Shown one piece after another: positions 13,045 through 28,308 of a DNA stretch of 33,399 nt. The DNA lies in assembly GCA_002713585.1 (NCBI GenBank), contig PATD01000017.1, positions 2,170-35,568 on the forward strand. Reading direction: 5' to 3'. The DNA is from Methanobacteriota archaeon (GTDB lineage Archaea; Thermoplasmatota; Poseidoniia; Poseidoniales; Thalassarchaeaceae). The stretch's first letter is position 1, and every line of letters starts with the position of its first letter. The position numbers and the translations under genes were made by a program. The notes beneath the pieces are model-generated. The model saw only the letters and a list, made by a program, of their open reading frames with translations. It made no database searches and was not told the origin of the DNA.

Positions 13045-13806
13045 TCAAAGCACCATCGGGTCGTCATCTGAACCCTCATCCATCTTTGGTTCAGGCAATG
13101 TAAGTTGATGCTCCTGCATCATCTCCCGTACCTTCTGTTCGATGACGATTGCCTTCTCCATAAGACCCTCAAGTGGAATGTCGCGATCAAGCATCTCCGA
13201 AAGTGCCTCGAGTGCTGGAAGTGCAGCACGTGCATCCGGATATCCTGGATTAGATGGTGAGAGAATTGCATAGGCATCGAACCCCTGTCGATCAGCCTCT
13301 GCTAGAAGATAGCCAGTGATTCCAGGCACGATTCCATGCTCAACTGATTCCAAACCAATCTCCTCAAGTCGAGCTCTTGATGCATCAGTAGAACCGACCC
13401 CGAAAACAGGAGGGATGTCTTCGCCGGTCATGTTTGGAAGAAACACACCATCAATCATCACAAGACGGTCGAAGCCGCCATCACGGAACCACTTGATGAC
13501 TGTCTCAGCAAAAGAGAGATTGAACTCATCAGGAAAGGCGATATCACTGACAAAGGCCCCTATTCCATCGCCTTGGTAGATTCTTACCGGGTGTTGGGGG
13601 CGGCGGCCACGGACAAGAGCCATTGCGGGGAATGATTCGCTTAGAACCGAGCCTAATTGCTCCATTCCAAACGTCTTGATGACCCAATCTACTGCAATGG
13701 CGCCAACGGCTCCCTTCGTAGTGAAACCACAGATTGCTGTCCCTCCGAGACGCTCACGCTCAGTGCCATGTTGGACGGCAAGTTCGAACGGCCGCGGTAG
13801 ACCCAT
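13045..13806 (-). CDS. PAC2-family protein, proteasome assembly chaperone-like (no HbYX tail)
   Basis: This 253-residue protein belongs to the PAC2 family, to which the eukaryotic proteasome chaperones Pba1/Pba2 and archaeal PbaA/PbaB belong. Visible family features are the purine-nucleoside-phosphorylase-like alpha/beta core with FGVGSTDASRARLEE, the loop GIVPGITGYLLAEADRQGFDAYAILSP broken around GITG, and the long C-terminal helix EKAIVIEQKVREMMQ. It ends DDDPMVL and lacks a hydrophobic-Tyr-X end, unlike the paralogue at 25378. This is the pattern expected of a PbaA-type protein. GGTTGAAAAC 30 nt upstream is a likely TATA box, with GGAG at 15 nt. Its stop lies 2 nt from nfuA. Confidence 0.85.
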   Translation of the reverse strand: MGLPRPFELAVQHGTERERLGGTAICGFTTKGAVGAIAVDWVIKTFGMEQLGSVLSESFPAMALVRGRRPQHPVRIYQGDGIGAFVSDIAFPDEFNLSFAETVIKWFRDGGFDRLVMIDGVFLPNMTGEDIPPVFGVGSTDASRARLEEIGLESVEHGIVPGITGYLLAEADRQGFDAYAILSPSNPGYPDARAALPALEALSEMLDRDIPLEGLMEKAIVIEQKVREMMQEHQLTLPEPKMDEGSDDDPMVL

Positions 13807-21003: not shown

Positions 21004-21008
21004 AAAAA
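21004..21008 (-). terminator. T-run after tRNA-Arg(CCG)
   Basis: On the minus strand, five T residues directly follow the discriminator A of the tRNA. Archaeal RNA polymerase commonly terminates on such runs. Confidence 0.5.
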
Positions 21009-21082
21009 TGGACCCACCGCGATTCGAACACGGGTTTCCAGCTCCGGAGGCTAGAGTGATATCCAGGCTACACTATGGGTCC
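21009..21082 (-). tRNA. tRNA-Arg (anticodon CCG)
   Basis: The 74-nt minus-strand sequence folds into a cloverleaf: acceptor GGACCCA/TGGGTCC, a 3-bp D stem GTG/CAC, anticodon stem CTAGC/GCTGG, loop CTCCGGA and T stem CCGTG/CGCGG with loop TTCGAAT. The anticodon CCG reads CGG (Arg). The discriminator is A and no CCA is encoded. Position 26 is T. Confidence 0.93.
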
Positions 21083-21106
21083 AGTGACACAACCAGCGCT
21101 CTAACT

Positions 21107-21170: not shown

Positions 21171-21247
21171 TGGCGGACCCACCGCGATTCGAACACGGGT
21201 TACAAGCTCCGCAAGCTCATGTGATATCCAGGCTACACTATGGGTCC
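21171..21247 (-). tRNA. tRNA-Arg (anticodon GCG), CCA encoded
   Basis: The 74-nt body (21174-21247) shares the acceptor, D and T arms exactly with the neighbouring tRNA-Arg. The anticodon arm is TGAGC/GCTTG with loop TTGCGGA, so the anticodon is GCG and reads CGC/CGU (Arg). The discriminator is G and CCA is encoded at 21171-21173. Position 26 is A. Confidence 0.93.
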
Positions 21248-23228: not shown

Positions 23229-23315
23229 TGACGCCGTGATTCTTCGTTTTCTCTGCATTCTAGTTCAACTTTGAAACGACGAGGTATGAAAAACGGTCAC
23301 GTCAGAAGGCGGTGC

Positions 23316-24125
23316 ATGGTGGACGATCCATTCACTGGTCAACGCGTCGTCGCGTTCGACCTAGAAACCACTGGACTTAATGTCCGCAAAGACCGGATTG
23401 TTCAGTATGCACTCATCGGAAGCGATAGTGATGGGTCAACGATTACTGTGGAATCCCTTGTTAATCCTCAGCGAAGTATCCCTAGTGAATCTAGTGCAGT
23501 TCATGGAATCACAGATTCTGATGTTCGTTCTGCGAGTACCTTCGAAGAACACGTTGACCAGCTGAGTGAAATCCTCGATGGAGCCATCGTGATTGGACAC
23601 AATATCGAACGCTATGATTGGCGGCTACTTACTGCAGAATATACCCGAGTTGGTCGTTTGCCACCTAAACCTAGCATAATGATTGACACACTACGCCTCG
23701 CCAAACGATTGAAAATTCCAGGAAGACATGATCTCGGAACTCTATGTAGAACAGCGGATATCACTCTGAATAACGCCCACAATGCAGCTGCAGATGCGGG
23801 AGCAACACTGATGCTTCTATGGCGTTGGATGTCGAGATATCCGCGTGAATTTCGGAGGTCGGCAGAGGAGTTACAGGCATGGATCTCTGCCGGGAACACA
23901 AATCAAAATGCACTTGGCCCATCCTTAGAAGACCTTGAATCGATACCGGGTTCAGGTGGACGTCTTCGGAAAGATGGGGATAGCGTAGTACTCGCATTTG
24001 GTAAGCACAAGGCAAGAGATCTGCTCGTTGTCGCAAACGAAGAACCGGGATATATTCGCTGGCTATGCTCACCTGCAGGACCATTGAATCAGGAAGCCAT
24101 AGACGCTGTGATGGAACTAATCTGA
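23316..24125 (+). CDS. DEDDh 3'-5' exonuclease with ExoX-like C-terminus
   Basis: The 269-residue protein has the DnaQ-like exonuclease fold with all catalytic residues: Asp15 and Glu17 (FDLETTG), Asp in GHNIERYDWR, and the final His...Asp pair in HNAAADAGATL. It would remove nucleotides from DNA or RNA 3' ends. The C-terminal about 50 residues (LAFGKHKARDLLVV, then GYIRWL) match the small domain found at the end of exodeoxyribonuclease X and related proteins. The ATG at 23316 is used because GGCGGTG lies just upstream and FDLETTG follows at the normal distance; an ATG at 23286 is the alternative. It converges with the Cas4-like nuclease gene, leaving 5 nt between them. A TTGAAAC box lies 45 nt upstream. 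Confidence 0.88.
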   Translation: MVDDPFTGQRVVAFDLETTGLNVRKDRIVQYALIGSDSDGSTITVESLVNPQRSIPSESSAVHGITDSDVRSASTFEEHVDQLSEILDGAIVIGHNIERYDWRLLTAEYTRVGRLPPKPSIMIDTLRLAKRLKIPGRHDLGTLCRTADITLNNAHNAAADAGATLMLLWRWMSRYPREFRRSAEELQAWISAGNTNQNALGPSLEDLESIPGSGGRLRKDGDSVVLAFGKHKARDLLVVANEEPGYIRWLCSPAGPLNQEAIDAVMELI

Positions 24126-24130
24126 ATGAT

Positions 24131-25312
24131 TTATTCTTCTTCGGACTTGTTGCGATACGATGAATTGCGAATTGACTCATGAAGGGGAGCCCATGGAAGA
24201 ACCTCGCTCCAATCACCCATGGCCCAGGGTTTTGCATTGGTTCGGATAGAGCCGAGAAAGACCGCTCCACGATGGTCTGAATTCATGACATCTCGCATCT
24301 GATCGAGTGCCTGTCCTTTGCAGATTAGGCCAATAGTGCGGCCCGACGGGATGATTCCACCAACCTCATCCTTAGGGCTCACGAGTTCTACCATGCAGGC
24401 GCCACTTGCTTCATCGAATTGGAGAACAAGAGCAACCTCGTCACGGAAGATTCCTGTCGGGGCAGACAGTCCACCCTCGGATCGTGCATGGAACCAGGCT
24501 GGGCACCATGCTTTCCATTCACAAAACCGACACGCGTCATCATCTGGAGTTGCCTGCAATGGTTCCTTTGTGATTGCCATCCCTTCCCATGCACGGAATG
24601 CGTCCTCGAGGACGGAGGGGCCCTCGGCATCGTACACCTTTGGTCCGGCTGAATACCATCCCTGAGCACGCACAGTTGGTGCATTAGGATTGTTTTCCAA
24701 TAGCATATCTCGATAGAAGCGGAGTTGCCGACTAACTGTCTCATAGAGGCCCCCGGGAGGTGGTCGGCCTGTCTTTAGGTCTGCAACAATCCACCCAACG
24801 GGATTACGGTCCTCATCAAGATCCTTCACGAGAAGGTCAAGTCGGCCCATTAGTCGACCACAAGGTGAGCGGAGTGTCCCTTCCGCAGCCAGAACAGTAT
24901 CCTGTACTTCACGCCACTGAGCAATGGATACCTCTGACATCTTCGCCGTACCAATCTTCGCGTTAGCAATGAGCATGTTGAGAGAACCAATTAGAAGATC
25001 GTGGGCACGAACAATTTCGCCATCCTTGAAAGCTGGATGGCGAGGCGTTCTAAGGAAAATTTCCTTTTCCTTCTGCCAATGAAGATCGAGAATTCGCTTC
25101 GCAGTAGGTGGTAGCCAACCAACCTCATCTGCATCCTGCCCGGAAAGATCGAGATTGCAGAAATCCTCCACACTATCATGCACTGCGGTTCCAATCGTTG
25201 CTGCCATCCCTGCCTTCCGTGGAAGGCGTTGTCTTGACAACCAGTACTTGCGAGGACAAGATGCGTAGTTATTCCATGAGGAGGGTGACAACTGATGAGC
25301 AGGAGTGGTCAT
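24131..25312 (-). CDS. Cas4/RecB-like PD-(D/E)XK nuclease with Fe-S cysteines
   Basis: The 393-residue protein has the RecB-type nuclease core: LSPSSWNNYASC at the N-terminus, GTAVHD (His45), GRLDLLV (Asp159), VADLKTG (Asp178 and Lys180) and QLRFY (Gln196, Tyr200). Cys19 with the C-terminal set Cys261, 264, 270 (CxxC plus five plus C) matches the four-cysteine 4Fe-4S layout of Cas4, AddB and Dna2 nucleases. It should therefore cut or resect DNA ends. A further 110 residues after the cluster (about 283-393) are not part of the nuclease and may be a beta-barrel. No cas gene or CRISPR array is near, so a defence role is not implied. The start is the ATG at 25312. Confidence 0.88.
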   Translation of the reverse strand: MTTPAHQLSPSSWNNYASCPRKYWLSRQRLPRKAGMAATIGTAVHDSVEDFCNLDLSGQDADEVGWLPPTAKRILDLHWQKEKEIFLRTPRHPAFKDGEIVRAHDLLIGSLNMLIANAKIGTAKMSEVSIAQWREVQDTVLAAEGTLRSPCGRLMGRLDLLVKDLDEDRNPVGWIVADLKTGRPPPGGLYETVSRQLRFYRDMLLENNPNAPTVRAQGWYSAGPKVYDAEGPSVLEDAFRAWEGMAITKEPLQATPDDDACRFCEWKAWCPAWFHARSEGGLSAPTGIFRDEVALVLQFDEASGACMVELVSPKDEVGGIIPSGRTIGLICKGQALDQMRDVMNSDHRGAVFLGSIRTNAKPWAMGDWSEVLPWAPLHESIRNSSYRNKSEEE

Positions 25313-25377: not shown

Positions 25378-26187
25378 ATGGCGAGCGAGCCGATTCTAAA
25401 GATTTCTAGTGATGTGGATGCCGAAGGTGCGTTGGTAGTTACCTGCTTCCCGTCAGTGGGTTATGTGACTTCTATTGTTGCTCATTACCTCATCGATCAA
25501 CTTGAGCTGAGGTTCTGCGGGGGAGTTCGGGCACCCGGGCTTCCTGCCGTCTGTCTAGTGAAAGATGGGCAACCCATGCCTCCTCTCCGATTCTATGCAG
25601 GTGAACCTGTTTGCACAGTCGATGGCTGCGACAAGTTGATTCTGATTGTCTCTGAAATCCCAGTTCGCAACGATATGGTCCTCCCTCTAACCGAGACTTT
25701 GCTGGATTGGTCCAAGGAGGCAAAGATTGCTGGAGGTGTTCTAATAGATTCATTCTCCCACACAGATGAACACGCTCACGAAATTATTGATGATGATGAT
25801 ACAGAGGAGACTATTCTAGGCATTGGTGCGACCGAAGCTACACGCGAACGACTAGAGAAGATGGATGTTCAACTACTGAGTCAAGGCGTCGTCGCTGGGA
25901 TGACTGGGGTTCTACTTGGTGAATGCCGACGAAGAGGACTCGATACTTTCGCAATTCTCGCCGAAGCAAATGGGCCACCTGGCGCGGGTTTACCTGATGC
26001 AAGAGCGGCTTCTCGTATTATCGAAAAACTCGACATGTTACTTCCCAACCTTTCCCTTCCTACCGAGCCTCTTATCGAAGAAGCAGAACGAATTGAAGAA
26101 CAGATTCGTGAAATGCTCCAGGTTCACCTAGGAAAGGTAGCAGAAGATGAAGAGAATGCGGGTCCTTCCTCAATGATCTACGGTTAA
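25378..26187 (+). CDS. PAC2-family proteasome assembly chaperone-like protein with HbYX tail
   Basis: The 269-residue protein is a paralogue of the PAC2 protein at 13045. It has the family's alpha/beta core, GIGATEATRERLEK, GVVAGMTGVLLGECRRRGLD and the C-terminal helix IEEAERIEEQIREMLQ. It ends Met-Ile-Tyr-Gly, a hydrophobic-Tyr-X tripeptide at the very C-terminus. In archaeal PbaB and eukaryotic Pba1/Pba2 such a tail docks into the pocket between proteasome alpha subunits. A flexible acidic stretch (VAEDEENAGPSS) separates helix and tail, as expected of a docking arm. The gene abuts the converging ligA stop with no gap. Confidence 0.87.
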   Translation: MASEPILKISSDVDAEGALVVTCFPSVGYVTSIVAHYLIDQLELRFCGGVRAPGLPAVCLVKDGQPMPPLRFYAGEPVCTVDGCDKLILIVSEIPVRNDMVLPLTETLLDWSKEAKIAGGVLIDSFSHTDEHAHEIIDDDDTEETILGIGATEATRERLEKMDVQLLSQGVVAGMTGVLLGECRRRGLDTFAILAEANGPPGAGLPDARAASRIIEKLDMLLPNLSLPTEPLIEEAERIEEQIREMLQVHLGKVAEDEENAGPSSMIYG

Positions 26188-28308
26188 TCAGATCCAATCA
26201 TCCAAGGTTCCTGACCTTTGAACCTCTGATTCCTCATTGGTTTGTGACTCAAAATTCCCGCCCGTGGTGAATATTGTATCTAAATCAGATTCTTTCAAAA
26301 TCGACACTCCGAGACGTTGTGCCTTATCCAACTTCGACCCTGCTGATTCGCCAGCAATAAGATAATCCAATTTACCTGAAACTGTGCTGACTACCTTGCC
26401 ACCGGATGCTTTGATTGCAAGCGCAATCTCCTTTCGAGGACGACTAAGCGTCCCCGTGATGCAGAATGTCTTACCCTCCAATACACCAGAGGATGTGGAA
26501 GAAACTACCTCGGCTGTAATCTCGATTATATCTGCTAAATCAGAAACAATAGAATGACGCACTGCTAACCCATCAAGAAGTGAAGACGCAACGGTTTCTC
26601 CAACGCCATCAATTGCAATAAGGCGATCAATCACAGGCTTATCTTTCGCCTCAACCATCATCATCAATTTCTCCAAATCGCCAACTTCTGCAGCAATTGA
26701 GGTAGCGAGTTCTGGGCCAATCCCTGGAAGACCGAGAGCTGATAAGAATCTCGATAGCATCAAAGATTGAGTTGATTCCAACTGAGAGAGGACATTCGAA
26801 GCACTCTTCTCACCCATGCGATCAAGGGCAAGTAGGTCGCTCATACTCAATCGATAGAGGTCAGGAAGGGTTCGAACAAGTCCTGCATCACAGAGTTGCT
26901 CTGCAAGTTTTTGACCGATCCCATCCATCTCAAGAGCTCGACACCAGTAAAGGACTGTGCGAACAACACGGGCTGGGCAATCGAGGTTGTTACATCGAAG
27001 AAAGGCACCATCAATCTCAAGCGACGAAGCGCATTCAGGACAAGATGATGGCGACTCAGGCACAGACCGTTGCGGAAGTAGCGATTCAAATTGTGTCCCA
27101 TCTCCATGAAAACGTCCTATCAAATCATTCGAATCGGCCGGCCCCAACACCTCGATAATCTTCGGAATTACATCACCTCTACGCACAATCCTAACCTTGT
27201 CCCCGATTTGGATTCCGAGACGCTCGACCTCTCCAGCATTATGGAGGGTAGTATTCTCGACTGTCACTCCGGAAACAACAACTGGAGCAACGCGTGCAAC
27301 TGGCGTTACGGCCCCCGTTCTACCAGTTTGCCAATCCACACCCATAAGCACAGTTACCGCCTCCTCCGGAGGAAACTTCCATGCAAGGGCCCAACGAGGA
27401 TGATGTGCAGTCATTCCCAGTAATTCCCTCTTAGCAAGATCATCGAGTTTGAACACTACACCATCAATCTCCCATGGAAGTTCAGACCGAGTATCGGTCC
27501 AATACTTGGTCTGAGAAATCATTGAAGCTGTTACTGTATCCACTGTGTCTCCCTCACAAACTTGGTCTCCCGCCGGTTCGATACCGACGCTGCGTAACCA
27601 ATGGACAATTTCGCTATCATGTTCAAACTGGAGTGGTTTAGGACTGTCAGGATGGGCCTCATCCGAAGGAATGAAACGCGCGTCGTAAGCAAGGAAGGTT
27701 AGATCTGAAGCATTTCCCTTACCTGAATCAACGTGCTTCTGACGGAGAGCCCCGGCTGCAAGATTTCGAGGGTTTGGGGCGATGTCAGCGTACTTCTCCC
27801 TAAATACATCGAGACGCATTACAACCTCACCACGAACATGGCAATCCCCATCCCAAGTAAGGCGATGAGGGATGTTGGGGATTCTCAGAGCATTTGCTGT
27901 TACATCCTCCCCACGCTCACCATTACCTCGAGTTGCTGCACGTACCAGTCGGCCTCGCCGATATTCAAGCGAAAGGGCAGAGCCATCGAGTTTCGGTTGA
28001 GCGAGGAAGCGTCGACCCTCCGCCGTCGTCTCCTGAACAAAATGGAGAATCTCCTCTTCTGTTGTGGCTTTGTCAAGACTCCTCATAGGAAAACGATGGT
28101 CTACCTTTACTGAACCAGCCGGCACCTCTGCACCAACTCGTCTAAGTTGAGGATGATTCGGAGAATGTCGCTTTAGTTCATCCCACAATGCATCGAACTC
28201 GGCATCATCAATCTCTGGAGTTGCGAGATTGTAGTATAGATGAGAATGGCGAGCGATCTCCGCCGCAAGATGCTCAACACGATCCAAAGGCCCCCCTCCC
28301 ATGTCCAT
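26188..28308 (-). CDS. ligA: NAD-dependent DNA ligase LigA with C-terminal PIP-like tail
   Basis: LigA seals nicked DNA using NAD. The 706-residue protein has the full bacterial layout: the NAD-binding Ia domain (YYNLATPEIDDAEFDAL), the adenylation site AQPKLDGS with Lys106, an OB fold, a four-Cys zinc finger (Cys423, 426, 439, 444), helix-hairpin-helix repeats (about 460-585) and a BRCT domain (about 608-680). A 26-residue tail follows and ends SGTLDDWI, resembling a PCNA-interacting (PIP) peptide; bacterial LigA usually stops near its BRCT domain. The ATG at 28308 has GGAG 6 nt upstream; another ATG lies two codons later. Most archaea use ATP-dependent ligases, so this enzyme is probably of bacterial origin, as in haloarchaeal LigN. 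Confidence 0.96.
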   Translation of the reverse strand: MDMGGGPLDRVEHLAAEIARHSHLYYNLATPEIDDAEFDALWDELKRHSPNHPQLRRVGAEVPAGSVKVDHRFPMRSLDKATTEEEILHFVQETTAEGRRFLAQPKLDGSALSLEYRRGRLVRAATRGNGERGEDVTANALRIPNIPHRLTWDGDCHVRGEVVMRLDVFREKYADIAPNPRNLAAGALRQKHVDSGKGNASDLTFLAYDARFIPSDEAHPDSPKPLQFEHDSEIVHWLRSVGIEPAGDQVCEGDTVDTVTASMISQTKYWTDTRSELPWEIDGVVFKLDDLAKRELLGMTAHHPRWALAWKFPPEEAVTVLMGVDWQTGRTGAVTPVARVAPVVVSGVTVENTTLHNAGEVERLGIQIGDKVRIVRRGDVIPKIIEVLGPADSNDLIGRFHGDGTQFESLLPQRSVPESPSSCPECASSLEIDGAFLRCNNLDCPARVVRTVLYWCRALEMDGIGQKLAEQLCDAGLVRTLPDLYRLSMSDLLALDRMGEKSASNVLSQLESTQSLMLSRFLSALGLPGIGPELATSIAAEVGDLEKLMMMVEAKDKPVIDRLIAIDGVGETVASSLLDGLAVRHSIVSDLADIIEITAEVVSSTSSGVLEGKTFCITGTLSRPRKEIALAIKASGGKVVSTVSGKLDYLIAGESAGSKLDKAQRLGVSILKESDLDTIFTTGGNFESQTNEESEVQRSGTLDDWI

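Follow-up and report, generated by a model that had tools for sequence, protein, structure and literature searches.

Dna2, a eukaryotic Fe-S nuclease, carries an OB domain that is located before its nuclease. The Cas4 protein SSO0001 is a 5'-3' single-stranded DNA exonuclease, and its cysteine set resembles that of AddB (available text of PMC3466216). For the Cas4-like proteins of Pfam family PF12705, the available text of PMC5704561 describes phage proteins and forms linked to UvrD or COG1205 helicases and reports no major CRISPR-associated branches; for solo-Cas4 genes, roles in defense or repair are suggested there. The archaeal nuclease analyzed here belongs to the same Pfam family as these Cas4-like proteins. 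It differs from the groups described there, and the term OB-fold is absent from the main text of PMC5704561. The nuclease family itself is known, but the literature searched (including PMC5704561, PMC3466216, PMC6299218, and PMC9960219, in the text available of each) contained no description of a PF12705 Fe-S nuclease with a C-terminal OB domain.

Identification of the nuclease and conservation of its active site

The window, i.e. the whole stretch of DNA that was analyzed, comprises 33,399 nucleotides of a genome of the archaeal order Poseidoniales (Marine Group II) that is 77% complete. It holds an open reading frame on the minus strand with the ATG at 25312 and a stop codon that ends at 24131; the frame on the plus strand is full of stops. 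Judged by its sequence and predicted structure, the encoded protein belongs to the Fe-S nucleases of PF12705, with a C-terminal OB-type domain and an intact set of motifs. The following features were assigned.

24131..25312, minus strand: predicted Fe-S PD-(D/E)XK nuclease with C-terminal OB-type domain, 393 amino acids (open reading frame, Pfam, structure model)
24500..25294, minus strand: nuclease domain, residues 7-271, PF12705 (Pfam E value 5.1e-23; fold matches AdnA, Dna2, and AddB)
25256..25258, minus strand: Cys19, first cysteine of the putative cluster (unchanged in all 118 aligned rows)
24503..24532, minus strand: Cys261-x2-Cys264-x5-Cys270, the other cluster cysteines (invariant in 118 of 118 rows)
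24767..24781, minus strand: DLKTG active-site motif with D178 and K180 (invariant; D178 aligned with AdnA residue 934)
24836..24838, minus strand: D159 of the GRLD motif (invariant; aligned with the GRLD of AdnA)

PDDEXK_1 (PF12705) was the sole Pfam match above cut-off in the 393-residue protein and covered residues 7-271 with 82.7 bits against a cut-off of 22. The curated Cas4 models scored below their cut-offs, PF01930 with 11.5 bits (cut-off 22.7, Pfam) and TIGR00372 with 23.5 bits (cut-off 65, NCBIfam). Therefore, the term "Cas4-like" used in an earlier note on this DNA is valid in a wide sense only. No helicase domain was matched by Pfam in the 393-residue protein, neither one fused to the nuclease as in AddB/AdnA nor a C-terminal SF1 helicase as in Dna2. 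A search of the PDB with the single sequence gave no match; the profile built from 38 relatives matched AdnA, a subunit of a bacterial helicase-nuclease, with a best E value of 1.2e-4. The match to phrog_69 spanned residues 2-277 only. Whether the nuclease could stem from the nuclease domains of the AddA/AddB proteins in these genomes was tried as well, and the comparison yielded marginal profile scores only.

Conservation was assessed in an alignment of 118 rows, of which 95 were assigned to family f1 and 23 to family f2; one row probably duplicates the window protein. The residues H45, D159, D178-L-K180, Q196, and Y200 were invariant in all 118 rows, and so were the four cysteines (Cys19, 261, 264, and 270), which are spaced C-x241-C-x2-C-x5-C and would form an Fe-S cluster. 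The nuclease motifs and the four cysteines reported in the earlier note are present, the cysteines at the positions given there and conserved in the homologues. H, D, D-x-K, and Q-x3-Y make up the complete active-site set of PF12705 Fe-S PD-(D/E)XK nucleases, and the protein contains all of them. D178 was aligned with AdnA residue 934, the catalytic Asp that was mutated in AdnA and is replaced by Ala in the chain of the D934A mutant. The four-cysteine set is like that described for AddB, and the cysteine arrangement together with the active site is like that of Cas4 (available text of PMC3466216). Family f1 alone typically has two more cysteines, C52 (95/95 rows of f1, 0/23 of f2) and C151 (90/95 and 0/23).

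Of eight pairs of close sequences, two had a computable dS, one of them near saturation (dS 1.5-2.5); in the other six pairs dS was beyond measure. In these two pairs, dN/dS amounted to 0.010-0.015 in the nuclease and to 0.013-0.055 in the OB part. By these ratios, both parts of the protein are under strong purifying selection.

Fold relatives and the C-terminal OB-type domain

The full-length structure model had a mean pLDDT of 89. Its nuclease part matched AdnA (Z = 15.1), Dna2 (14.3), AddB (13.4), the Argonaute-associated ACE1 (13.3), EXO5 (10.8), and Cas4 SSO0001 (10.6). With the nuclease domains of AdnA and AddB, which are among the top fold matches, the protein shares the PD-(D/E)XK fold and, for AdnA, the GRLD and DLKTG motifs; unlike these, it has no helicase in the same chain and carries an OB-type domain after the last cysteine. 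The Fe-S nuclease fold is also common to the eukaryotic enzymes Dna2 and EXO5. However, the OB domain of Dna2 precedes the nuclease and a helicase is present, whereas in the archaeal protein the OB-type domain follows the nuclease and no helicase was found; the alignment with Dna2 started at Dna2 residue 121. From Cas4 and solo-Cas4 proteins (PF01930, e.g. SSO0001) the archaeal protein differs in scoring below the curated cut-offs, in its additional C-terminal domain, and in that no Cas1 was detected in the genomes of its order that were surveyed.

24179..24457, minus strand: C-terminal OB-type domain, residues about 286-378 (predicted models and fold searches; sequence searches of Pfam and PDB without a credible match)

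The tail after Cys270 comprises 123 residues, of which about 286-378 (~93-95 residues) are folded in the model and the last 10-16 have a pLDDT below 50. AddB chains and most Cas4 chains aligned to model residues 1-291 only; the exceptions, 8d3q_J (Cas4) and 3l0a, reached residue 328 with an rmsd above 5 Å. Of the two outcomes that would have spoken against the earlier note, a tail that matches a Cas4 or AddB domain and cysteines that vary among homologues, neither was observed. When residues 281-393 were folded alone, with 38 sequences, a barrel was predicted with a pLDDT of 87-98 over most of its length. The isolated domain model had strands at 9-19, 25-33, and 40-51, a helix at 53-64, and strands at 71-77, 83-85, and 90-93, and this succession of three strands, helix, and three strands contains the order b1-b2-b3-helix-b4-b5 of the OB fold. 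In the Foldseek and VIA comparisons, both lists were mostly headed by OB proteins, namely Teb1, SSB, HIN, PriB, POT1, RPA-related proteins, and CusF/SilF. SSB 6jdg was superimposed with a Z of 8.1 and 2.4 Å over 76 residues. The top Z of 8.3 belonged to Teb1, but with an rmsd of 11.4 and an alignment that extends into the disordered tail. The Z values of 7-8 lie in the middling range of the tool, and the best Foldseek E value was 4.4e-3, with none below 0.001. On the strength of the models, the OB fold class is well supported, and no particular OB family is. Both the existence of an additional domain behind the last cysteine and the suggestion of an OB fold, made earlier from the letters alone, are thus borne out by structure prediction.

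Sequence searches with the domain returned nothing credible: the Pfam hits were limited to a single one at chance level in each of two members out of 38 (E = 0.05 and 0.14), and against PDB sequences the best E value was 0.43. No viral model matched the OB part in Foldseek at E < 0.001. Invariant positions were F289, V293, G318, G366, W368, and P376, and W374 was near-invariant. The domain is acidic, with a mean net charge of -4.9 over about 93 residues and negative values in 36 of 38 sequences; within the same window, the OB domain of LigA has a charge of +1 over 71 residues and that of MCM -4 over 125 residues. Some conserved aromatic residues are present, and at no position do Lys or Arg occur in more than 71% of the sequences. 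Given the acidity of the modeled domain and its want of strongly conserved Lys or Arg residues, docking of a partner protein appears at least as likely as recruitment of DNA.

Distribution of the nuclease gene

Of 97 close genomes, the own genome included, 93 have the nuclease gene, among them 27 of 27 with a completeness of at least 90%, and all 19 genera are represented; a few of the 93 positives are contig-edge fragments, which count as matches here and in the class and phylum samples. The class sample had matches in 118 of 145 genomes, and the 27 misses consisted of 6 members of the order, 14 genomes listed for the sister family f3, and 7 outside the table. In the phylum sample, 54 of 194 genomes matched, 47 of them Poseidoniales. 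In the other seven, the matches were short and partial, with E values from 1e-9 to 5e-4; they lay in three genomes within frames of more than 1000 amino acids and in four within frames of 213-277. No full-length copy outside Poseidoniales was present in this 194-genome sample. Matches were found neither in phages or plasmids, searched by tblastn with the window protein, nor in viral contigs, searched with the alignment. The architecture may exist in other phyla or metagenomes, as the searched range was the phylum sample, phages, plasmids, and viral contigs.

Of 95 relatives, the best 80 were covered. The 80 loci L031-L110, placed in family f1 by similarity and titles, are not all independent because in several cases one assembly contributes two contigs. 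The gene of L106 is split in two frames and was excluded from the non-redundant set.

Genomic neighborhood

The genes next to the nuclease were delimited as follows.

23271..24125, plus strand: DEDDh 3'-5' exonuclease-like protein, convergent neighbor, with a weak ExoX-like C-terminal match (profile matches)
25378..26187, plus strand: PAC2 family protein, divergent neighbor (Pfam; at most 500 bp away wherever there is room)
26188..28308, minus strand: NAD-dependent DNA ligase LigA, beyond PAC2 and on the strand of the nuclease (TIGR00575, 558 bits against a cut-off of 444)

In loci with sufficient room, the DEDDh gene was present in 78/78 of family f1 (64 within 500 bp) and 18/18 of family f2 (15 within 500 bp), PAC2 within 500 bp in 79/79 and 17/17, and LigA within 10 kb in 76/76 and 15/15, respectively. 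Among the 15 f2 loci with a LigA gene, 11 have it several kb from the nuclease; in L159, the one such locus that is annotated, the insert encodes three proteins, one with a PKD domain and two that matched nothing. The window contains two genes of the PAC2 (proteasome assembly chaperone) family, at 13045-13806 and 25378-26187. In one Poseidoniales genome, a DNA methylase gene (PF01555, L176:2688-3998) adjoins LigA.

The whole region is collinear across the order, including genes for surface proteins and thioesterases. Since many unrelated genes are collinear too, the neighborhood speaks for vertical inheritance rather than for a common pathway of its genes, and the adjacency of LigA and DEDDh is weak evidence for a functional link. 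The search for the architecture in other archaea and for its gene neighbors, as proposed earlier, thus gave an order-wide, collinear gene with no full-length copy elsewhere in the phylum sample.

CRISPR and defense

Of the 26 window proteins delimited, 22 neighbors of the nuclease were scanned with Pfam, and no cas gene was found among them. Apart from DEDDh, the scanned neighbors were housekeeping proteins, surface proteins, or proteins without a match. Cas1 was detected in 0/22 Poseidoniales genomes, 0/6 of the sister family, and 4/9 other members of the phylum, with a profile that matched in 9 of 14 controls. In a search for direct repeats of at least 20 nucleotides with copies within 200, the window yielded only two tRNA-Arg genes. 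These tandem, similar genes have the anticodons ccg and gcg and lie at 21008-21083 and 21171-21247. A link to CRISPR was rejected on these grounds (no cas gene in 22 neighbors, Cas1 in 0/22, repeat family made up of tRNA genes). The earlier statement that neither a cas gene nor a repeat array is nearby holds for the 22 neighbors scanned and the repeat settings used, and the earlier suggestion of a stand-alone nuclease is supported, with no CRISPR link detected.

Could the protein nevertheless be a solo Cas4 that defends the cell against foreign DNA? Its nuclease fold is Cas4-like, and roles of solo-Cas4 in defense or repair have been suggested (available text of PMC5704561). PADLOC, which was applied to two proteins, matched the nuclease with the DruK (3e-9, the best) and Cas4 (8e-7) models and the DEDDh neighbor with the candidate defense model PDC-S48 (6e-39) and a CRISPR-associated DEDDh model (4e-34). 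However, the matches of both proteins cover generic nuclease domains that are shared with housekeeping proteins. NCBIfam grouped the DEDDh protein with exonucleases of the DNA polymerase III epsilon type, although all 25 models shown scored below their cut-offs. The unmet Cas4 cut-offs, the lack of Cas1 in the 22 Poseidoniales, and the composition of the other Pfam-scanned neighbors all speak against defense. So does the near-universal retention at one collinear place with low dN/dS, unlike typical defense islands, and a defensive solo Cas4 seems very improbable.

The Cas4 model PF01930 itself matched in 7/22 Poseidoniales, 4/6 sister-family genomes, and 3/9 others, and the Poseidoniales matches were on contigs other than that of the nuclease. 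The own genome encodes a second Cas4-like protein (L177:4027-5253, G000:C12:12393-12725), with relatives at L179:4141-5337, L178:4991-5926, and L180:4390-5262. It retains the C-x2-C-x5-C set and is shared with the sister family. The part between its N-terminal cysteine motif and its nuclease motifs includes two or three stretches that are strongly hydrophobic and resemble membrane segments. The L177 protein is possibly a membrane-anchored solo Cas4.

Repair genes of the order

Repair genes were surveyed in 37 genomes, comprising 22 Poseidoniales, 6 of the sister family, and 9 other members of the phylum. LigA matched in all 22 Poseidoniales, in 20 above the cut-off; the remaining two matches come from a gene divided between contigs and from a fragment. 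ATP-dependent ligase was detected in 0/22 Poseidoniales, 5/6 sister-family genomes, and 7/9 others. LigA (window 26188-28308) was the only type of DNA ligase detected in the 22 Poseidoniales genomes. This ligase content would suit an excision repair, such as mismatch or long-patch repair, in which the nuclease and the DEDDh exonuclease degrade with opposite polarity and LigA seals. The conservation of the neighborhood in both families and the weak ExoX-like match of the DEDDh protein point the same way. However, the genes do not form a single operon, with DEDDh convergent and PAC2 between nuclease and LigA, and the collinearity extends to unrelated genes, so that such a pair of exonucleases is possible but rather unlikely.

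Mre11/SbcD was detected in 0/22 Poseidoniales and, at E = 7.8e-13 or better, in 9/9 other members of the phylum, with a profile that matched in 13 of 14 controls; the six sister-family genomes had two strong and four weak hits. NurA was detected in 0/22, 1/6, and 4/9 genomes, respectively, with a profile that matched in 7 of 14 controls. The Rad50 hook was found in 0/22 Poseidoniales, in a weak test whose model matched in 3 of 14 controls only. FEN1-type XPG_I was present in 19/22 Poseidoniales, and UvrD_C in 21/22, in 19 of these in frames of at least 1592 amino acids. Frames for an AddB-like and an AddA-like protein, the large frame coming after a second long one, were observed side by side in three genomes, at L185:3-7951 (G000:C42, the own genome), L186:1484-10158 (G060), and L188:1361-9927 (G012). 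In the two of three pairs examined with Pfam, the AddA-like protein, of about 1650 amino acids, contains UvrD plus PDDEXK_1, and the AddB-like protein PDDEXK_1.

The absences make it attractive to assume that the nuclease has replaced end resection by Mre11-Rad50 and HerA-NurA, apparently lost in the order, the more so as full-length copies in the class and phylum samples were found only in Poseidoniales. However, the AddAB-like pair of the three genomes and the UvrD_C proteins are candidates for resection as well. Because the AddAB-like pair is present, the Fe-S nuclease is probably not the main nuclease for resection of double-strand breaks, for which this pair, by its predicted domains, is the better candidate. 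Moreover, a trade of one for the other was not strict, since G098, G099, G100, and G102, which make up four of the six genomes of the sister family, lack both a strong Mre11 hit and the nuclease gene. We consider the replacement quite improbable, and the reading is unnecessary with the AddAB-like pair at hand.

Discussion

Since nearly all sampled Poseidoniales carry the gene, the protein is probably a housekeeping DNA-repair enzyme of the order, outside any CRISPR system. With its nuclease core and putative cluster, it most likely acts as an exonuclease on single strands. We consider it fairly probable, from motifs and models, that the protein is a stand-alone Fe-S single-strand exonuclease for repair or replication, with the OB barrel positioning the strand or docking a partner. 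As a chromosomal PD-(D/E)XK exonuclease of the AddB/AdnA/Dna2/EXO5/Cas4 class, it would probably act on single-stranded DNA ends or flaps and degrade the single strand 5'-3' or both ways. The OB barrel would most likely sit where the strand exits or enters, or serve to dock a partner, and of these two its acidity favors docking.

A role in DNA-end processing, which had been proposed in the earlier note, is one that we infer from the nuclease family only. A trimming of single-stranded ends, flaps, or excision tracts, which LigA would then ligate, would fit best, and the enzyme may cooperate with the neighboring DEDDh exonuclease and LigA. Against a need for the nuclease counts that FEN1-type XPG_I and the AddAB-like pair already cover flap and end processing. 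That the nuclease with a single-strand-handling OB domain, DEDDh, and LigA form a dedicated excision-repair module, in an order that has an AddAB-like pair and LigA instead of detectable Mre11, NurA, and ATP-dependent ligase, seems unlikely on present evidence.

Archaea of Marine Group II abound in the surface ocean and are not known to have been brought into culture. Their nearly universal, lineage-specific nuclease would be a DNA-maintenance enzyme for which the literature found, in the text available, gives no description. As a small protein, it would be suited for probing the Fe-S nuclease fold without a helicase, and with an OB domain at the other end that may do the job of the OB domain of Dna2.
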